Below, one piece after another: positions 4,210-38,715 of a stretch of DNA of 38,715 bases. This DNA is from Candidatus Thorarchaeota archaeon (GTDB lineage Archaea; Asgardarchaeota; Thorarchaeia; Thorarchaeales; Thorarchaeaceae), in NCBI GenBank assembly GCA_018238375.1, contig JABCTJ010000066.1, positions 1-38,715 on the forward strand. Reading direction: 5' to 3'. A program made the translations under genes and the position numbers. Under the pieces are notes generated by a model, which did no database searches, was not told the DNA's origin, and was given only the letters and a program-made list of their open reading frames with translations. Each line of letters begins with the position of its first letter. Positions within the stretch are counted from its first letter, which is position 1.

Positions 4210-5220
4210 TTGATCAACAAGATGACTGAGATATCTGACAAGTTGGAGCGGCAAAGAAAGGACGATCCAAAGCTGCTTGTCAAGATGCAGGTGGCCGCTC
4301 AGGGCCAAGACCCTCGTTTCTTCATCGTTTCTCAAATCCATCGAAGTACTCAAGATCTGAAGCTTCTGGGTCTTGAACAAGGAGATGCTTTCCATGGCAC
4401 TCGTGTTTCAGGCTGTCCGCTCCTCTCACCCAGCAAGTCGCCAGTACTGTTTGCTGGACCTGCCGCCTACAATGGGAATTTTCCCCAGAAAGATGGCGTT
4501 GTGATCACGTTTGACATAGATGAACCACAGGAACGAATTCACGAATCGCTTGTCAATCTAACAGAACATCCGGCGCTTTCTGGGATACCCATCATAGCTC
4601 TCAACGTTGACTACGCTCAGGGTCTTGCTCAGGCAATAGGTCACTCCTTCCATCGCAATAGAGATATCGAGGAAATGTTGGTATCAAGGTGTGTCAAGCC
4701 CGAGAGATGCGACGAGAGCGTCCTTGTGCTATTATGCTCAGATTCGCGTGTTCATCCTCCTTCAACTCCAGTCGGTGTACCCTTTGCGATTCAAACCCTC
4801 GGAGCTTACGTTTCCAAGTACAGTGATGCTGATGACGAAACAACGCAGCTGAATGATTTCTTTTCTGACTGGCTTTCTACAGAAGCCAGTACGAAACGGA
4901 TTCTGATAGTTGAACATGGAGGGTTTACGCGGGAAGAACCGCCATGTGGTGCAGGGCAGGCATCCATGAATCCACAGCAGGTGAAAGGGGAGTTTCTGCG
5001 CCCTGTGATCGAGCTGCTCAACCGAGAAGCACTTCGATTCGAAGATGGTATTTCCAAGACAGTCGAAGATAGAGTTCTCGCAATCGGTCAGGCCACTGAA
5101 TACAATCTGCGAAACTACCCTGCGATAGCCAAAGTGCAAGAAGACGGAGTCAGCATGGAATCGCTGTTTCAGATAGTGACAATGGATACTGTTACCGGCA
5201 AACTCCGAGAGATTGGATAA
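4210..5220 (+). CDS. Divergent beta-carbonic anhydrase-like protein
   Basis: A 336-residue soluble protein whose centre resembles beta-class carbonic anhydrase. LLCSDSRVHPP carries the C-x-D-x-R motif (C176, D178, R180), it continues into VPFAIQTLGAYVSK, and VEHGG (H236) followed by CGAGQAS (C246) would supply the remaining zinc ligands. In ordinary beta-CAs the last two ligands are H-x2-C; here ten residues separate them. The N-terminal ~165 residues do not match the family and are unexplained. I take TTG 4210 as start because GGTGA lies 6 bases upstream; ATG 4222 is the alternative. The last 12 codons are duplicated at 8525-8563, on the far side of the inserted gene. Enzyme activity is not certain. 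Confidence 0.6.
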   Translation: MINKMTEISDKLERQRKDDPKLLVKMQVAAQGQDPRFFIVSQIHRSTQDLKLLGLEQGDAFHGTRVSGCPLLSPSKSPVLFAGPAAYNGNFPQKDGVVITFDIDEPQERIHESLVNLTEHPALSGIPIIALNVDYAQGLAQAIGHSFHRNRDIEEMLVSRCVKPERCDESVLVLLCSDSRVHPPSTPVGVPFAIQTLGAYVSKYSDADDETTQLNDFFSDWLSTEASTKRILIVEHGGFTREEPPCGAGQASMNPQQVKGEFLRPVIELLNREALRFEDGISKTVEDRVLAIGQATEYNLRNYPAIAKVQEDGVSMESLFQIVTMDTVTGKLREIG

Positions 5221-5301
5221 GGGCTGGTTGTCATCATCACGACTTCAAGGCGCCTTCGAAGGTGACGTACATACCATCATACAATTGCAGGTCCAGAATG
5301 A
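5181..5301. repeat. 121-bp direct repeat, left copy
   Basis: Aligned by eye without gaps to 8524-8644, with 11 mismatches in 121 positions (about 91% identity). The repeat covers the last 13 codons' worth of the carbonic-anhydrase-like gene, the 16-bp gap after it and the last ~20 codons of the convergent nuclease-like gene. It therefore contains a complete copy of the old gene junction. Confidence 0.9.
5237..5301 (-). pseudogene. Remnant of the C-terminus of the nuclease-like gene
   Basis: Read on the minus strand this encodes ILDLQLYDGMYVTFEGALKS followed by TGA, against ILDLQMYDGMYLTFEGVLKA in the intact gene ending at 8580. Only conservative replacements are seen and the frame is intact, so the copy diverged while still under coding constraint and was then left behind as a fragment. 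Confidence 0.85.
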
Positions 5302-8476: not shown

Positions 8477-8523
8477 GACGTAATACCAAGTCAACAGTTG
8501 AAATCCAAGAATTCGCAGGATGC

Positions 8524-8644
8524 AATGGATACAGTTACAGGCAAGCTCCGTGAGATTGGATAAGGGCTTGTTGACATCATCACGCCTTCAAGACGCCTTC
8601 GAAGGTGAGATACATACCATCATACATTTGCAGGTCCAGAATGA
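8524..8644. repeat. 121-bp direct repeat, right copy
   Basis: Partner of 5181-5301, in the same orientation and without gaps. Together the two copies bracket about 3.2 kb that contains only the fusion gene and its promoter. Confidence 0.9.
8525..8563 (+). pseudogene. Remnant of the C-terminus of the carbonic anhydrase-like gene
   Basis: Encodes MDTVTGKLREIG and a stop, identical in protein to the end of the gene at 4210-5220, but with four synonymous base changes in 12 codons. It has no upstream coding sequence. Confidence 0.85.
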
Positions 8645-33183: not shown

Positions 33184-33271
33184 TGGGCGTCCATTCAGTT
33201 TCTTGAAGATGGGAAAGAGGGTATGTAACAGCTGCAGAAAACCTGTACAAAATTGGACATCTCTTAGATGA

Positions 33272-33427
33272 ATAGCGAATCGAAGCCCCTTTTTTGTAGA
33301 TGTTAATATACTCCAGAGAGGGACCTGTACATGTAGTGTCAGTCCAGGACGAGAACCAAGTCCAAGGATGACTCTACCGTCACCGTCAGTTGGCCGGGGA
33401 CGTAAAATGCCCGTGGAGAGGACGTAA
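33272..33427 (+). pseudogene. C-terminal remnant of an IS605-type tnpB
   Basis: A 51-codon open stretch between a TGA (33269-33271) and TAA (33425-33427). It reads FFVDVNILQRG, like the end of the TnpB RuvC domain (DxDxNAAxNILxRG with a few residues lost), and finishes GRGRKMPVERT, like the tail of many TnpB proteins. A few bases further, in another frame, MKQEPNNSS resembles the very last residues of TnpB. No upstream tnpB sequence is present, so this is a decayed or truncated element. The assignment rests on short motifs and needs a profile search. Confidence 0.5.
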
Positions 33428-33529
33428 GACATTGCAAATCTTTGATTTGCGAAGCAGCCTCGATGAAGCAGGAACCGAACAACAGTTCATGACCTTGATG
33501 TCCATGATTGTCTAGGTTTCGGGCAACGG
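33404..33529 (+). ncRNA. Structured element, copy A (IS605 right end / omega-RNA-like)
   Basis: A 126-bp element matching 38584-38715 on the opposite strand; the last 67 bp match at 60 positions. Pairings seen in both copies: an outer stem GCCCG (33409-33413) with CGGGC (33520-33524), an inner stem AGAC (33427-33430) with GTCT (33510-33513), and a hairpin GCAAATC-TTT-GATTTGC (33434-33450). In the other copy that hairpin has different bases but still pairs fully. It overlaps the tnpB remnant, exactly where omega-RNA (the TnpB guide scaffold) is found in IS605 elements. Similarity between the two copies stops after CAACGG, where a guide would begin. Confidence 0.55.
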
Positions 33530-33537
33530 AAGAGTGA

Positions 33538-33554
33538 CCCCAGAGTTTCTGGGG
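33538..33554 (-). terminator. Hairpin after the enoyl-CoA hydratase gene
   Basis: CCCCAG (33538-33543) pairs perfectly with CTGGGG (33549-33554) around a 5-base loop, 17 bases past the enoyl-CoA hydratase stop on the minus strand. There is no T-run, so it may be an mRNA-end structure only. Confidence 0.35.
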
Positions 33555-33570
33555 CCTCAAATCCTAAAGA

Positions 33571-34383
33571 CTACTCGCCTGTGAACTTGCCTCTTCGCTT
33601 TTCAAAGACAGAAGAGATACCCTCGGCCAAGTCCTTGGTTTCAAAGCACTTGTACGCAGCTTCGACTTGGAATTCAAGGTTCTTCTTATAGGACTCCTCA
33701 AATGCCATGTGTGTGGCCTGTTTGGCCAACTTCATAGCTAGAGGAGCATTACCCCCCAGCTTGGCGCCGTACCACATGGCTTGGCTAAGTAGTTCGTCGA
33801 CAGAGGTGACCTTGCTTACAAGGCCGCAAGCTAGCGATTCCTGTGCGGTTAATGTGCCGCCTGTAAGAATCATCTCCATTGCCTTGCTCAGACCGACGAT
33901 ACGCGGCAATCGCATGCAACCACCCCAAGCAGGGATTAGTCCAAGGCTGACCTCAGGAGTTCCAATCTTAGCCTCTTCGTCACAAATCCTGATATCGCAC
34001 GCTAGAGCAAGTTCGGTTCCTCCACCCAGGCAGAGTCCGTGAATAGCTGCGATTGTGGGCTTGCTTAATGTCGCAAGCTTGTCGAGAGCTGCTTGACCCA
34101 ACGCGACATAACCCTTGACCTTGTCCATCTCTTTGAACAAACCCTGTGCCATCTTCAGATCAGCCCCGGTACAGAATACCTTATCGTGAGCTGACGCCAT
34201 GACCACAGATCTGACATCAGGATCATTCTCTGCTTCAGTCAAAGCTGCATCTAAGTCCTGGATGAACTGATCGTTGATTGAGTTGAGAGCATCCAACCGA
34301 TTGAACTTGATGACTGCAACGTTCTTGACCGGAGAGAGGAAAGATCCTTCCTTTGAATAGAGTAAAGTCTTGTACTCTGGCAT
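33571..34383 (-). CDS. Enoyl-CoA hydratase / crotonase family
   Basis: Adds water across trans-2-enoyl-CoA to give 3-hydroxyacyl-CoA in beta-oxidation or related pathways. From ATG 34383 it has 270 residues. The two catalytic glutamates are in place: E124 (GGGTELALACD) and E144 (TPEVSLGLIPAWGG), 20 residues apart as in rat crotonase. The oxyanion-hole stretch is ASAHDKVFCTGADL. An in-frame extension to 34464 is rejected: GTGAT lies 8 bases before ATG 34383 and a TATA-like GAATTTATATG near 34428-34438 sets the transcript start near 34405. It has its own promoter and is separated from the dehydrogenase gene upstream by a terminator. Confidence 0.92.
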   Translation of the reverse strand: MPEYKTLLYSKEGSFLSPVKNVAVIKFNRLDALNSINDQFIQDLDAALTEAENDPDVRSVVMASAHDKVFCTGADLKMAQGLFKEMDKVKGYVALGQAALDKLATLSKPTIAAIHGLCLGGGTELALACDIRICDEEAKIGTPEVSLGLIPAWGGCMRLPRIVGLSKAMEMILTGGTLTAQESLACGLVSKVTSVDELLSQAMWYGAKLGGNAPLAMKLAKQATHMAFEESYKKNLEFQVEAAYKCFETKDLAEGISSVFEKRRGKFTGE

Positions 34384-34485
34384 AATAGAATCACTTCGAT
34401 AGTGTTTGTTGTTGTGGAGCTCCCAACCTACATATAAATTCGATTCCTGATAGGCAGGGGACATACTAGTTGTGCACTTGGGGGC

Positions 34486-34525
34486 CTAAGAAAAGGAAGA
34501 GCTAGGCAGGGAGCAAGCCCTGCCT
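34486..34525 (-). terminator. Terminator of the nitroreductase-to-dehydrogenase operon
   Basis: On the minus strand AGGCAGGG and CCCTGCCT form a perfect 8-bp stem with a 6-base loop (34504-34525), followed by the pyrimidine-rich CTTCCTTTTCTT (34488-34500). It lies 17 bp after the 3-hydroxyacyl-CoA dehydrogenase stop codon. Confidence 0.7.
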
Positions 34526-34542
34526 TCTACCACCAGATGGTT

Positions 34543-35667
34543 TTACTGTAGCATCTTCGGAACGCTGTAGCAGTCTCCGAGCTCTTTATGCAGCTTGCCG
34601 ATCTCCTCACGTACCTTATCCATGCCGATTTTCTCAGCAATCTCAAAGGGTCCAGCCGGGAAGCTTGCGCCCAGCTTCATCGCGATGTCTATATCATCCT
34701 TTTCAGCGATGCCCTCGTCCACAAGAATCATGGCCTCTCGAATCACAGGCATTGTGATTCTTGTAACAAGCCAGTCTGTGTCCACACCCTTGGGAGGGTC
34801 TGGCTTGACCTGAGCCCCGCCGTACTCGTAGAAGCCCTTCTTGGATTTAGTGCCAATGTGTCCTGATTCGACCAGCTTTTCCAGAGTTTCCGGAGGCTTG
34901 AAGCAGTCTCCGAGCTCTCGGTAAAGGGTGCTCATGGCGTTGAACGCGATATCGAGACCAACGAAATCACTAAGCATGAATGGACCAGCTGGGAATCTTG
35001 CCTTCGCTGTCATAGCCACATCAATCTCTTCCTTGGTAGCAACACCCTGTTCGTATAGGAGAATGCTCTCCCTAAGAACGGGCATTAGAATGCGATTGAC
35101 AATGAAGCCCGGACTGTTCTTCGCCTTGACGATTTGTTTGCCCTGCTTCTCAGCAACTGCAATCGCTGCTGTAATGGTCTCTTCACTAGTCTTTTCGCCA
35201 ATGATTATTTCTACTAGCTTCATAGCAGCAACAGGAGAGAAGTAGTGCATTCCAATCACCTTATCCGGTCGCTTCGTAGCCGTTGCCAGCTCATCGATGC
35301 TCAATGAGGATGTGTTTGATGCAATCACTGCATGAGCAGGTGCTGCCGCATCAACCTTGCCGAAGACCTCTTTCTTCACCTTCATGTTCTCAAAGATAGC
35401 TTCGATGACTAAATCGGCATCTTTGACAGCCTCCTCAAGAACGGTGGTCGCACTGAGCCTGCCCATGAGACCCTCAGCCTCTGACATTGTCATCTTGCCC
35501 TTGTCGATTCCGGTCATTACATCTGTGCGGATTCGTTCCATTCCTTTATCGATGAACTCCTCCTTGATGTCAACCATCTTGACTTCTAGACCATTCCAAG
35601 CAGAGATGTAAGCAATGCCTGATCCCATCAAACCCGCGCCGATGACTACTATCTTCTTGACGTCCAC
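34543..35667 (-). CDS. 3-hydroxyacyl-CoA dehydrogenase with duplicated C-terminal domain
   Basis: Oxidises 3-hydroxyacyl-CoA with NAD in beta-oxidation or butyrate-type pathways. 374 residues: Rossmann GAGLMGSG (10-17), catalytic H141 (MHYFSP) with upstream SNTSS (118-122), then two tandem copies of the helical 3HCDH domain. The copies start NRILMPVLRESILLYEQGVATKEEID and TRITMPVIREAMILVDEGIAEKDDID (shown here by their first motifs) and each ends in a KELGDC-type motif. The doubled domain in one chain replaces the dimer-made pair of shorter enzymes. GTG 35667 has GGAGGT 7 bases upstream. Last gene of the minus operon. Confidence 0.93.
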   Translation of the reverse strand: MDVKKIVVIGAGLMGSGIAYISAWNGLEVKMVDIKEEFIDKGMERIRTDVMTGIDKGKMTMSEAEGLMGRLSATTVLEEAVKDADLVIEAIFENMKVKKEVFGKVDAAAPAHAVIASNTSSLSIDELATATKRPDKVIGMHYFSPVAAMKLVEIIIGEKTSEETITAAIAVAEKQGKQIVKAKNSPGFIVNRILMPVLRESILLYEQGVATKEEIDVAMTAKARFPAGPFMLSDFVGLDIAFNAMSTLYRELGDCFKPPETLEKLVESGHIGTKSKKGFYEYGGAQVKPDPPKGVDTDWLVTRITMPVIREAMILVDEGIAEKDDIDIAMKLGASFPAGPFEIAEKIGMDKVREEIGKLHKELGDCYSVPKMLQ

Positions 35668-35679
35668 ATCACGGACCTC

Positions 35680-36045
35680 CTAGAATGCACCCATCATTGC
35701 GGCTAGGATGAGGTTAGCAAGTGCGTCGCTCTCATGTGCATTACCAATTACCTCAAGGCTTCCATCCTTCATGGTATCCTTGAACTTGACCTCGCCTGTG
35801 AAGATGCCCACCAAGATTTCTCCGGTCGCTTTGTAGATGACATCCGGACTGGGATAGACACCTTCGTGCAGGGTCATGCCATCCTTTGTCACGACTATGT
35901 ACTGGTCGCCGCCGTCAGGCGTATGGACTTGAAGAATCTTACCATCGTAAGGTCCAACCCAGTCAGCAAGTTGCTTCTTGAGATCTTCCTTTTCTTTCGT
36001 TTTTGCGATGAGGAACTTGAAAAACTCCTGTAGTTGTTCTGACAT
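35680..36045 (-). CDS. SCP2 sterol-carrier-like domain protein
   Basis: A 121-residue stand-alone SCP2-type lipid-binding domain (DGKILQVHTPDGGDQYIVVTKDG, SPDVIYKATGEILVGIFTGEVKFKDTMKDGSLEVIGN). SCP2 domains hold fatty acyl-CoA or other hydrophobic ligands. Its place between acyl-CoA genes suggests it carries or presents lipid substrates to the dehydrogenase. ATG 36045 is chosen; a TTG at 36051 touching the previous stop is possible. GAGGA lies upstream. It is 12 bp from the dehydrogenase gene. Confidence 0.88.
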   Translation of the reverse strand: MSEQLQEFFKFLIAKTKEKEDLKKQLADWVGPYDGKILQVHTPDGGDQYIVVTKDGMTLHEGVYPSPDVIYKATGEILVGIFTGEVKFKDTMKDGSLEVIGNAHESDALANLILAAMMGAF

Positions 36046-36051
36046 CTTCAA

Positions 36052-36324
36052 TCAGTCCTCCTTCGCGATCCATTCATCAAGAGCCTCATGCATTGCAGCA
36101 TCGACTGACACCGTCCACATGTTGCCCTTTCTCTTCTTCACCTTCTCCAAGAAGGCGTCATACTTCTCTCCCTCCATCAAGACGACAACACGACCCTTTC
36201 GGTCATTGATGAACGCCTGGTGGATCATCTTCTTGGTGTTCCAGTATTCATGTTCAATGTCGCCATCCTTAAGCCGAGGGTAGAAAGGCCATTCGCCTGT
36301 TGGATGTGGTCTAAACTTAGCCAT
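36052..36324 (-). CDS. Uncharacterised small protein in acyl-CoA operon
   Basis: A 90-residue soluble protein, Trp- and Lys-rich, beginning MAKFRPHPTGEWPFYPRLKDG and ending in a helix (VSVDAAMHEALDEWIAKED). Its ATG overlaps the stop of the preceding gene (TAATG), which indicates translational coupling. It shares a WPFxP motif with that neighbour (QWPFRP there, EWPFYP here), so the two may be distantly related or form one complex. No family recognised. Confidence 0.7.
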   Translation of the reverse strand: MAKFRPHPTGEWPFYPRLKDGDIEHEYWNTKKMIHQAFINDRKGRVVVLMEGEKYDAFLEKVKKRKGNMWTVSVDAAMHEALDEWIAKED

Positions 36325-36581
36325 TATTCAAGCCTCCATTTCTTAACCATGTTACCAGTTGCCTCACAGAATCCGGGTCTAAAGGGCCACTGGACAACGT
36401 ATCGGAATCCTTTGACTCCATCCTTCTCACCCTTGGACCATCTGCCAGTGTAGACTCTGGATCCGGTGTTGTGGATGAATTGTAACATCACGCACTCGAT
36501 TAACCCCTCAGAAGAGAGGTTAGCCTCGGTAGCGAGCTCCTTCATCTTCTCCGTTGATTCTTTATCAAAACTTACGTCCAT
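36324..36581 (-). CDS. Uncharacterised small protein in acyl-CoA operon
   Basis: An 85-residue protein from ATG 36581 (MDVSFDKESTEKMKEL). A GTG at 36590 overlaps the nitroreductase stop as GTGA, but the ATG has GGTGA 5 bases upstream and is preferred. It has an N-terminal helix, then a strand-rich part (GSRVYTGRWSKGEKDG, GFRYVVQWPFRPGF). Unknown family. It is translationally linked to the genes on both sides. Confidence 0.7.
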   Translation of the reverse strand: MDVSFDKESTEKMKELATEANLSSEGLIECVMLQFIHNTGSRVYTGRWSKGEKDGVKGFRYVVQWPFRPGFCEATGNMVKKWRLE

Positions 36582-36586
36582 GTTGC

Positions 36587-37348
36587 TCACCCCTTCCTGA
36601 AGGCCATTCGTTTGTACGGCTTACCCCATCGCTCTTCATACGCAAGGCCTTCAAGTGGGACCCTGCTTGGACCAAGAGCGCGCGGAGATACCCTATTTCC
36701 AATGCAGAACGCTGTGAGTGGCGTCCAGATTGGTGGAATCCCAAGTCGGTCACGGACAAGTTCAGCATGCCGTGGGTCTGCACATACGAGAGCCTCATAG
36801 CCGCAACCATAGCCAAGCTCGGTTGCAACCAGCCACATGTTCATGATTGCCATGCCAGCAACAACCGAACCAAATAGCTCGTTCTGGTACATGTAACCGG
36901 CATCGTGCCAAGATTCACTCGCACAGACTATGATTGCAGCATCACTTTTTTCTGGATAGCGGAATAGCTTGCCATCCCTTAGTCGTGCATAGACTGCAGC
37001 TCTGTAGGGGTCACTGATGAACCAGTTTCGACCGCTGGTGAGCTCAAAGGGCGCACCACCAAATGCAGTCTGGGCCATCTCTTGCGCGATATCGGCCAGG
37101 AACTCCTTCATCTCCTGGTCATCGCGGATTACTATGAGACGGATCATAAGCATGTTCTCGGGGCTAGGCGCGTGCCTAGCAGCTTCGAGAATCAACTCGA
37201 TATGCTCATCCGGAATCCGTTCTCCTGTAAACTCGCGGATTGAGCGGCGAGATCGTATCAGCTCCAAGGCCTTTAGCTGTCCAACGGCCTGGGGACGCGA
37301 TTCCTCTTTTCCACCTGTGTCCGCTTTGGTTTTTGCAGCACTTCCCAT
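36587..37348 (-). CDS. Nitroreductase-family flavoprotein
   Basis: A 253-residue FMN-dependent oxidoreductase. N-terminal disordered, charged tail (1-25), then the family signature RSRRSIREFTGERIP (FMN phosphate-binding arginines), APSPENMLMIRLIVI, and the C-terminal LGYGCGYEALVCADP...LGIPPIWTPLTAFCIGN. Members reduce nitro groups, quinones, enones or act as dehalogenases; some act on acyl-CoA-linked substrates. First gene of the operon running to the dehydrogenase. ATG 37348 has GAGGA about 8 bases upstream and GATTTATGC near 37402-37410 as a possible TATA box. Confidence 0.88.
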   Translation of the reverse strand: MGSAAKTKADTGGKEESRPQAVGQLKALELIRSRRSIREFTGERIPDEHIELILEAARHAPSPENMLMIRLIVIRDDQEMKEFLADIAQEMAQTAFGGAPFELTSGRNWFISDPYRAAVYARLRDGKLFRYPEKSDAAIIVCASESWHDAGYMYQNELFGSVVAGMAIMNMWLVATELGYGCGYEALVCADPRHAELVRDRLGIPPIWTPLTAFCIGNRVSPRALGPSRVPLEGLAYEERWGKPYKRMAFRKG

Positions 37349-37522
37349 TAATTATTCCTCAGGAATTGTTATTCGCAATCAATGCGAAGCGAGAAGCTAG
37401 CATAAATCTATTGCGAGAAACGTAGCTGGTAGAAAAACAAGCCAAAATGAATGAGTCCGGGGCGGAAATCATCAGTCACCGAATGAAATTCGACACCCCG
37501 GAATGGTCGAACAGGAATCTGC

Positions 37523-38278
37523 CTACTCTTCTAGCTCAATCCAGTACTTCGGAATTCCAGCTGTAGTGAATATGAGGAATATGATAACAAAGTATAGAGC
37601 GATCATCGGGAGGCTATACATTACTAGTGCGCCAATGATTACAAACAGAATGCCAAGTATCATCGGAGGCACAAGCCCTCCATGCAACTCATCCTCTAGC
37701 ATCCATACCGTGACACCCACGAATGCGGAGAGAACCCCAAACAGCGCCTGCGATGCGAATCCTGCAAGGTAGTAGTTGGGCATTCCTAACAAATGTCCGG
37801 TCACTGGATCATGGTATAGAGGGTCCAGACCATAAGTGAGCAGCATAAAAGCCATGGCTCCGAAAGCACATGCAACAAGAACGGATAGGATTGCACTATA
37901 CTTTGCAAGAACCTGCTCGTAGTTGATGTGAAGACCGAACAGGCCTAATGATTGGATTAGAAATCCTACTGAAATGCCGAAAAGTCCAATCCCAACCATG
38001 AATGTCATGAAGATGTAGTCTGGGACGATGGGCTCCGCAAATGCTGCTTGCGCACCAGCAAAGAGAAATGCGAACACAAGCCCTATCACTGCTCCAATCG
38101 CTCCGAGAATGAAATACTTTCGGTCGAATCCTTCTTTTCTCTGAGTCATTGCACCTTTGGCACACGTGGGATGGCTTATCCAGCCCTGATATCGAACTGC
38201 AACCTCGGGATCAACGCCCAAACCACAAAAAATGCATTTGACCACGTTCTCATTTTCAGTTTGTTCTGCCTCTTTCAA
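37523..38278 (-). CDS. Polytopic membrane protein with N-terminal zinc-binding motif
   Basis: A 251-residue protein. The N-terminus is cytoplasmic and carries C-x2-C...H-x2-C (KCIFCG and SHPTCAKG), probably a zinc site. Then follow six or seven membrane segments between about residues 55 and 245, ending in a short acidic tail (YWIELEE). No family recognised. It starts with TTG 38278 with GGGGGAT 7 bases upstream. It stands alone: the next gene downstream has its own promoter. Confidence 0.75.
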   Translation of the reverse strand: MKEAEQTENENVVKCIFCGLGVDPEVAVRYQGWISHPTCAKGAMTQRKEGFDRKYFILGAIGAVIGLVFAFLFAGAQAAFAEPIVPDYIFMTFMVGIGLFGISVGFLIQSLGLFGLHINYEQVLAKYSAILSVLVACAFGAMAFMLLTYGLDPLYHDPVTGHLLGMPNYYLAGFASQALFGVLSAFVGVTVWMLEDELHGGLVPPMILGILFVIIGALVMYSLPMIALYFVIIFLIFTTAGIPKYWIELEE

Positions 38279-38583
38279 TTTTCAATCCCCCAGACATAGG
38301 AGGCTCTAACCCCTCCCACGTAATACCTTGGAATATCCGCATAAAAGGATTGGTGCTCAGCGTAGATCTCATGGCAATATCTTCATAGAGATAGCACTAC
38401 GCGAATGGATACGAGAACACAGTCCCCCGTATTGCCAGGGTGGCATTCAGATACTTGCCGAGTATTGGCTCAGATACACAAGCTAACTTATGGATGATGA
38501 GCCTACGAAACGGTGAAGCGCACGGTACACCTCCCGGCGAATCGTGCGCATTTTCCTTTTTGGAATGGAAGCGCGGTTGCTCC
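38279..38583. other. Stretch without a recognisable gene; one strong hairpin
   Basis: No convincing ORF on either strand. GCGCACG (38518-38524) pairs perfectly with CGTGCGC (38543-38549), followed on the plus strand by ATTTTCCTTTTT (38550-38561). This looks like a plus-strand terminator, although I see no plus-strand gene in front of it, so an unrecognised small transcript may lie in 38300-38520. Confidence 0.4.
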
Positions 38584-38715
38584 CCGTTGCCCGAAACCTA
38601 GACAATCTTGGACATCAATGTCCTTGACTGATGTTCGGTTCCTGATTCATTGAGGTCTGCTCTGCAGATCCTACTGGATCTGCGACTAGTCTCACATCCT
38701 CTCCACGGGCATTTT
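38584..38715 (-). ncRNA. Structured element, copy B (IS605 right end / omega-RNA-like), cut by window edge
   Basis: A 132-bp minus-strand partner of 33404-33529. Its sequence begins at the window edge with the same AAAATGCCCGTGG and ends with the same CAACGG. The outer stem (38706-38710 with 38589-38593) is identical. The internal hairpin is GCAGATCC-AGTA-GGATCTGC (38683-38664), different in sequence from copy A but fully paired, and six bases longer, which accounts for the length difference. The tnpB that would precede it lies beyond the edge, so this copy may belong to a complete element. Confidence 0.55.

Follow-up and report, generated by a model that had tools for sequence, protein, structure and literature searches.

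The window analysed here, the whole 38,715-nucleotide stretch of Thorarchaeota contig JABCTJ010000066.1, contains on its forward strand a 310-bp sequence (33220..33529; copy A) whose left and right ends are common to other copies and change sharply to unique flanks. Judged by its sequence, copy A is a complete non-autonomous element (MITE) of the IS607 family in which a guide RNA scaffold is present and tnpB is absent. It is short, multi-copy, bounded by common ends and free of a transposase gene, with no intact TnpA or TnpB ORF; terminal inverted repeats form no part of the basis for calling it a MITE. The fixed left end of copy A reads GGTATGTAACAGCTGC. The stretch GGTATGTAACAGCTGCAGAAAACC (33220..33243, +) is conserved in the type-1 MITEs described below and more weakly in type-2 MITEs and in a tnpB-bearing element on contig C234, and among the copies compared the type-1 left end starts GGTATG(T/C)AACAGCTGC. 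At the left junction lies the inferred crossover dinucleotide GG (33220-33221, +), within a GAGGG target motif (33217..33221, +) that was delineated from 47 independent left ends and is a published TAM of IS607 TnpB (PMC11061315). The sharp right end common to the copies, ...GTTTCGGGCAACGG, is followed by unique flank; its terminal CAACGG (33524..33529, +) is found in nearly all complete copies, and GG at 33528-33529 would be the matching crossover dinucleotide. The 20 nt of unique flank past this end, AAGAGTGACCCCAGAGTTTC (33530..33549, +), are the predicted guide of copy A.

The right part of the element is a 151-nt reRNA (omega-RNA) scaffold (33379..33529, +). Copy A matches our scaffold model, R1, over model positions 1-157 (166.1 bits, E 3e-42, with copy A itself in the training set), and the same scaffold is found at the tnpB 3' end and in complete IS607 elements, consistent with the first-pass annotation of this DNA, which had suggested that an orphan guide RNA may lie here; no tnpB adjoins copy A. 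Within the scaffold lie a RAGATH-18-like core with a GGAG...CGATGAA motif (33410..33474, +; Rfam RF03064 positions 1-71, 25.4 bits) and an apical hairpin, GCAAATC-TTT-GATTTGC (33434..33450, +), with arms at 33434-33440 and 33444-33450. A C-terminal tnpB remnant, VTVSWPGT*NARGEDVR... (33379..33480, +), was recognised by tblastn with the genome's own TnpB and by three-frame translation; it has an in-frame stop that recurs in nearly all these short copies, and its place within the RNA reflects the overlap of RNA and tnpB 3' end seen in full elements. The annotation had described a structured RNA element from 33404 to 33529 at the end of a tnpB remnant. Its right boundary stands, while the scaffold begins at about 33379 and the element at 33220; a remnant does exist, limited to the last ~40 codons of tnpB, and the element as a whole is not mainly a tnpB remnant. 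Upstream of the scaffold, a TATA-box-like TTAATATA (33303..33310, +) could be a promoter belonging to the orphan RNA itself: TTAATATA or TTATATA is conserved in most type-1 copies, but not in those of genome G013.

A search of the genome with 33350-33580 returned 25 BLAST matches (best E 1e-117, most <1e-25), a repetition well in excess of chance. In all, 24 scaffold copies were counted against three matching TnpB genes, and copy A is one of about 21 dispersed TnpB-less guides in this genome. Type-1 copies measure ~310-320 bp, and ~13 in this genome have the same left end. Type-2 copies (L016, L019, L020 and L022; 271-284 bp) combine a related left end with more of the tnpB 3' end, and the C234 element (1.34 kb) consists of left end, tnpB and scaffold. 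A second MITE, copy B (38584..38715, -), is represented in the window by its rightmost 132 bases, being cut short by the contig end; it is inverted and 82% identical. Its hairpin arms are GCAGATCC (38664-38671, -) and GGATCTGC (38676-38683, -), and its predicted guide lies at 38564-38583 (-). The relatives in which a conserved 24-mer of the element recurs bear, with few exceptions, the name Candidatus Thorarchaeota. A 35-nt scaffold match at the start of an Erythrobacter MAG contig (L300, MEDW01000093.1, 26-60) is probably contamination or chance. Four 139-nt scaffold copies with identical scores in one sister genome (G003:C106, C107, C30 and C159) suggest recent amplification of one subfamily.

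The hairpins of copies A and B differ in their bases with pairing intact (GCAAATC/GATTTGC in copy A), as had been noticed from the letters of the window. That difference had been taken as a sign of selection on RNA; the covariation is real, but A and B represent two subfamilies, and selection cannot be read from this single pair. Across the family, the apical hairpin aligns poorly and was tested apart from an 80-copy alignment: across 80 copies with 64 distinct hairpins the mean paired score was 6.81 of 8, compared with 5.08 (maximum 5.48 of 200) when 3' halves were swapped between copies and the best stem was re-picked after each swap. The consensus of the 80-copy alignment contains 19 pairs outside the apical hairpin, 11 of them with two-sided changes. 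These four other helices have 97.1% of cells paired, as against 93.3% after shuffling, and their 11 pairs with two-sided changes compare with 4.6 in shuffled alignments, a level reached in 0/500 shuffles. The case for the structure comes from covariation only and not from the folding energy of copy A, which taken alone is not special (z = -0.15). Single copies with one broken hairpin pair occur (L007, L009, L010 and L012), which indicates that not every copy is under tight constraint. The all-copy comparison that the annotation had proposed thus confirmed a covarying hairpin family-wide and, with tnpB relatives present in the genome, left its reading standing. In one copy, L091 (G004:C126), the apical hairpin of the orthologue L004 is replaced by a shorter, different and perfect one, CCTCAG-CTTG-CTGAGG.

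In several copies the full-length RF03064 model (1-71) aligns to one and the same place, with 25-30 bits. The best reaches 30.2 bits (E 0.022) and copy A 25.4, below the gathering threshold of 44.9, and at gathering thresholds Rfam gives no match within the window. By sequence comparison the RNA is a diverged, sub-threshold relative of RAGATH-18 rather than a filed member of RF03064. An Rfam match to Xist_exon1 was judged spurious. Ren et al. 2024 (PMC11061315) identify RAGATH-18 RNAs as reRNAs of IS607 TnpB, with AGGAG or GAGGG as TAM; 64% of them adjoin tnpB, and 36% have no adjoining IS607 tnpB.

The insertion sites were reconstructed by joining the flanks across each element with one GG kept and searching the sister genomes. 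At the 47 independent left junctions, purine-GGG is found in 46/47 and an A precedes GGG in 36/47, and the sequence further left is random. The search yielded 46 junction-spanning alignments at 15 sites, nearly all gapless; the exceptions are the tnpB-bearing L017, with ~20 extra bases in the sister sites, and L004, with a single-base gap. Most empty sites read (R)AGGG|guide, for example AAGGAGGG|GACTAGCGATTGG at L002 and ATCAGGG|CATCTATCGTGGG at L019, and the TAM is altered in some sister-species sites. GG thus occurs at both ends of the element and once in the empty site, as expected for IS607 elements, which recombine at GG and whose scaffold includes the fixed nucleotide of the right flank (PMC10711439). 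These matches mean that at each site the sequence past the right end is the would-be TnpB target once the element is gone, and they answer the earlier suggestion that the bases after CAACGG be checked for a target: their match is the unoccupied insertion site of sister species. The left flank of L006 contains a ~50-bp sequence (ACTTCGGTGTCTAACTTTGTACAATTTACAATGAACGG...) that is found at ~35 places in sister genomes and not in the window, and which is a second dispersed repeat family.

The orthologous copy A in genome G006 has one difference in 148 scaffold bases and an identical guide, and the native site of copy A in G004 is empty, with one guide mismatch and the TAM GG missing. No second site for this guide was found within 3 mismatches in its own genome, and no exact AGGG+16-nt match in viral contigs. 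Guide positions in empty sites are barely more conserved than the surrounding DNA (mismatches 0.092, compared with 0.10-0.13 in neighbouring DNA), without clear selection. Of six orthologous pairs in which the site is occupied, four agree in all of the first 20 flank bases, with ~5% against 8% over all pairs by hand count. Selection on the guide is therefore not claimed.

The 5.05-kb segment between copies A and B (33530..38583) is inverted relative to four sister genomes (G003, G004, G005 and G006), with breakpoints at the two copies: in these genomes window position 33221 joins 38585 directly and the segment runs reversed to 33530. Another contig of the same genome, C266, carries the native left flank of copy A, adjoining a left end that shares 99% identity with the one in copy A. 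Either inverted-repeat recombination between A and B or an assembler misjoin at the repeats would produce this arrangement. The overlap of copy B with the C266 half-copy differs at two bases, so the assembly is not fully reliable there. What stands to the left of copy A in the window should not be matched with its guide, but neither inversion nor misassembly affects what the element is. Elsewhere in the window, a 122-nt direct repeat (5180-5301 and 8523-8644, 91% identical, 3.3 kb apart) covers the end of the ORF at 4210-5220.

Potential protein partners are few. The TnpBs of this lineage in the genome are an intact one on C234, one cut by a contig end on C275, and one on C98 that has a stop codon and is also cut. 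The C234 protein (404 aa) has RuvC-type residues D190/E274/D356 and four zinc-ribbon cysteines, and scores 335.7 bits with the NCBIfam guided_TnpB model (cut-off 100); on C234 and C275 the scaffold overlaps the tnpB 3' end (the last ~40 codons). In two related genomes TnpA, TnpB and this scaffold follow in direct succession (G022:C338 and G012:C57). Their TnpBs are ~69% identical to that of C234 and get a slightly higher score from the IS200/IS605 NCBIfam model than from the IS607 one, neither reaching its cut-off, and their TnpAs match the IS607 transposase model NF033518 with 191 and 186 bits (cut-off 110). Since these related full elements encode a predicted IS607-type serine recombinase TnpA, the short copies can be assigned to IS607 as non-autonomous derivatives. 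No serine recombinase (PF00239) was found in the genome itself (2.5 Mb, 92.6% complete); such recombinases are present in related genomes, and one of its own copies, L013, keeps a tnpA 5' remnant. Counting TnpB matches at E<=1e-60 with fragments included, the ratio of scaffolds to TnpBs is 24:3 in this genome, 28:2 in G003, 20:1 in G004, 4:0 in G005, 38:6 in G006, 35:19 in G010, 16:1 in G013 and 12:6 in G022. The sole matching TnpB of G013 (C2:235701-236945) has an in-frame TGA, while 16 scaffold copies persist; together with G005, which has no matching TnpB, this means that action of TnpB in trans is not always possible. Five more TnpB-like (PF07282) genes above cut-off (C79, C31, C169, C276 and C137) represent other TnpB lineages in the genome, and searches did not find this scaffold beside them.

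Very probably, copy A is a guide-carrying IS607 MITE that would be moved in trans by TnpA and whose orphan RNA would be used in trans by TnpB. Supplied in trans, an IS607 serine recombinase would excise and insert the element, crossing over at GG dinucleotides in (R)AGGG targets. The transcript of the orphan RNA, for which the TATA-like motif may serve as promoter, would include ~20 nt of the flank as a guide, and a TnpB encoded by one of the few copies still intact would bind this RNA in trans. The complex would then cut alleles that have lost the element, and repair from an element-bearing copy would restore it. The boundaries, scaffold, TAM and guide at the empty site, like the full relatives with TnpA and TnpB, are read directly from the genomes, while we infer movement by TnpA in trans, transcription and retention through TnpB in trans from the IS607 literature.

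The copies might instead be passive MITEs, moved by TnpA in trans through their kept ends; they would form no RNP, and the scaffold would persist merely through its overlap with the right end. We regard this as a serious contender that falls a little short of an even chance. The element is several-fold less diverged than its flanks in three orthologous pairs (L106/L093, L111/L124 and L015/L106; 1/283 versus 19/304, 4/306 versus 23/200 on the right, and 7/283 versus 21/304), and the conservation extends to its left half as well as the RNA, so that homogenisation of the copies or transfer among them is as probable a cause as selection on the RNA; two other orthologous pairs have no lower element divergence, one of them with the exchanged hairpin. 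The broken hairpin pairs of some copies, the guides without clear selection and the genome holding four copies without a detected TnpB also fit passive elements. Against them stand the apical hairpin, which lies deep inside the element and whose pairing survives extensive change, including the replaced stem of L091, the retention of the whole 151-nt scaffold throughout the subfamilies, which exceeds what a short recombinase site should require, and the TATA-like motif conserved in most type-1 copies.

The annotation had also considered a scar, and a degraded full tnpB element at this one site would account for the recognisable ~40 C-terminal tnpB codons with their in-frame stop, and for the resemblance of type-2 copies to internal deletions of a tnpB element. 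Type-1 copies, however, are found at many sites in several species with the same left end, a length of 310-320 bp and nearly always the same stop, and this uniformity at different sites points to one deletion event followed by spread of the short form; copy A has both transposon ends and ~13 repeats share its left end, which makes a local scar very unlikely. Least probable of all is a resident gene for a structured RNA, or a riboswitch-like element, with no connection to transposition: the RNA is structured and covarying, and one copy is common to two species at the same site (L001/L102), but such a gene is contradicted by the empty sites and stands against the sharp ends, unique flanks and full IS607 relatives. 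The earlier observation is thus real and its central reading as an orphan omega-RNA right, with its interpretation overall partly supported.

The guide-carrying MITEs can be set beside known systems. The ISFba1 TnpB reRNA, as described in PMC11061315, likewise has its scaffold (~150-190 nt) at the right end, a RAGATH-18-like core, a GAGGG TAM and a guide past the right end; it starts 13 nt downstream of tnpB, whereas in the tnpB-bearing copies here the scaffold reaches back into the 3' end of the tnpB coding sequence. The copies described here are, in addition, orphans, and their Rfam score is below gathering. ISXfa1 of IS607 shares the GG crossover, the GGG-type TAM and the fixed right-flanking bases in the scaffold, but carries tnpB, which these copies are without (PMC10711439). 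The complete Thorarchaeota elements at G022:C338 and G012:C57 have the same scaffold family and right end and differ in encoding TnpA and TnpB. PATEs, non-autonomous derivatives of IS200/IS605, are also short derivatives of TnpB-carrying transposons, but their transposase is of the HUH Y1 type and their ends are different. A literature search of limited coverage found no description of guide-bearing IS607 MITEs.

These results tie orphan RAGATH-18-like RNAs to a concrete entity, Asgard non-autonomous IS607 elements that retain the guide RNA but have shed the nuclease, an explanation that the available part of Ren et al. does not give for its 36% of RAGATH-18 RNAs without adjoining tnpB. They also show how an archaeal assembly or genome can become distorted by copies of this kind. 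Service by TnpB to elements other than its own becomes testable, the pairs of occupied and empty sites being ready-made sets of guide, TAM and target. More tentatively, and in our judgement less likely than not, the ~21 TnpB-less guide transposons may share the few TnpBs in trans, each with its own guide, as a scattered CRISPR-like set in these archaea; if so, this set would shield non-autonomous elements from loss and let them spread by homing.
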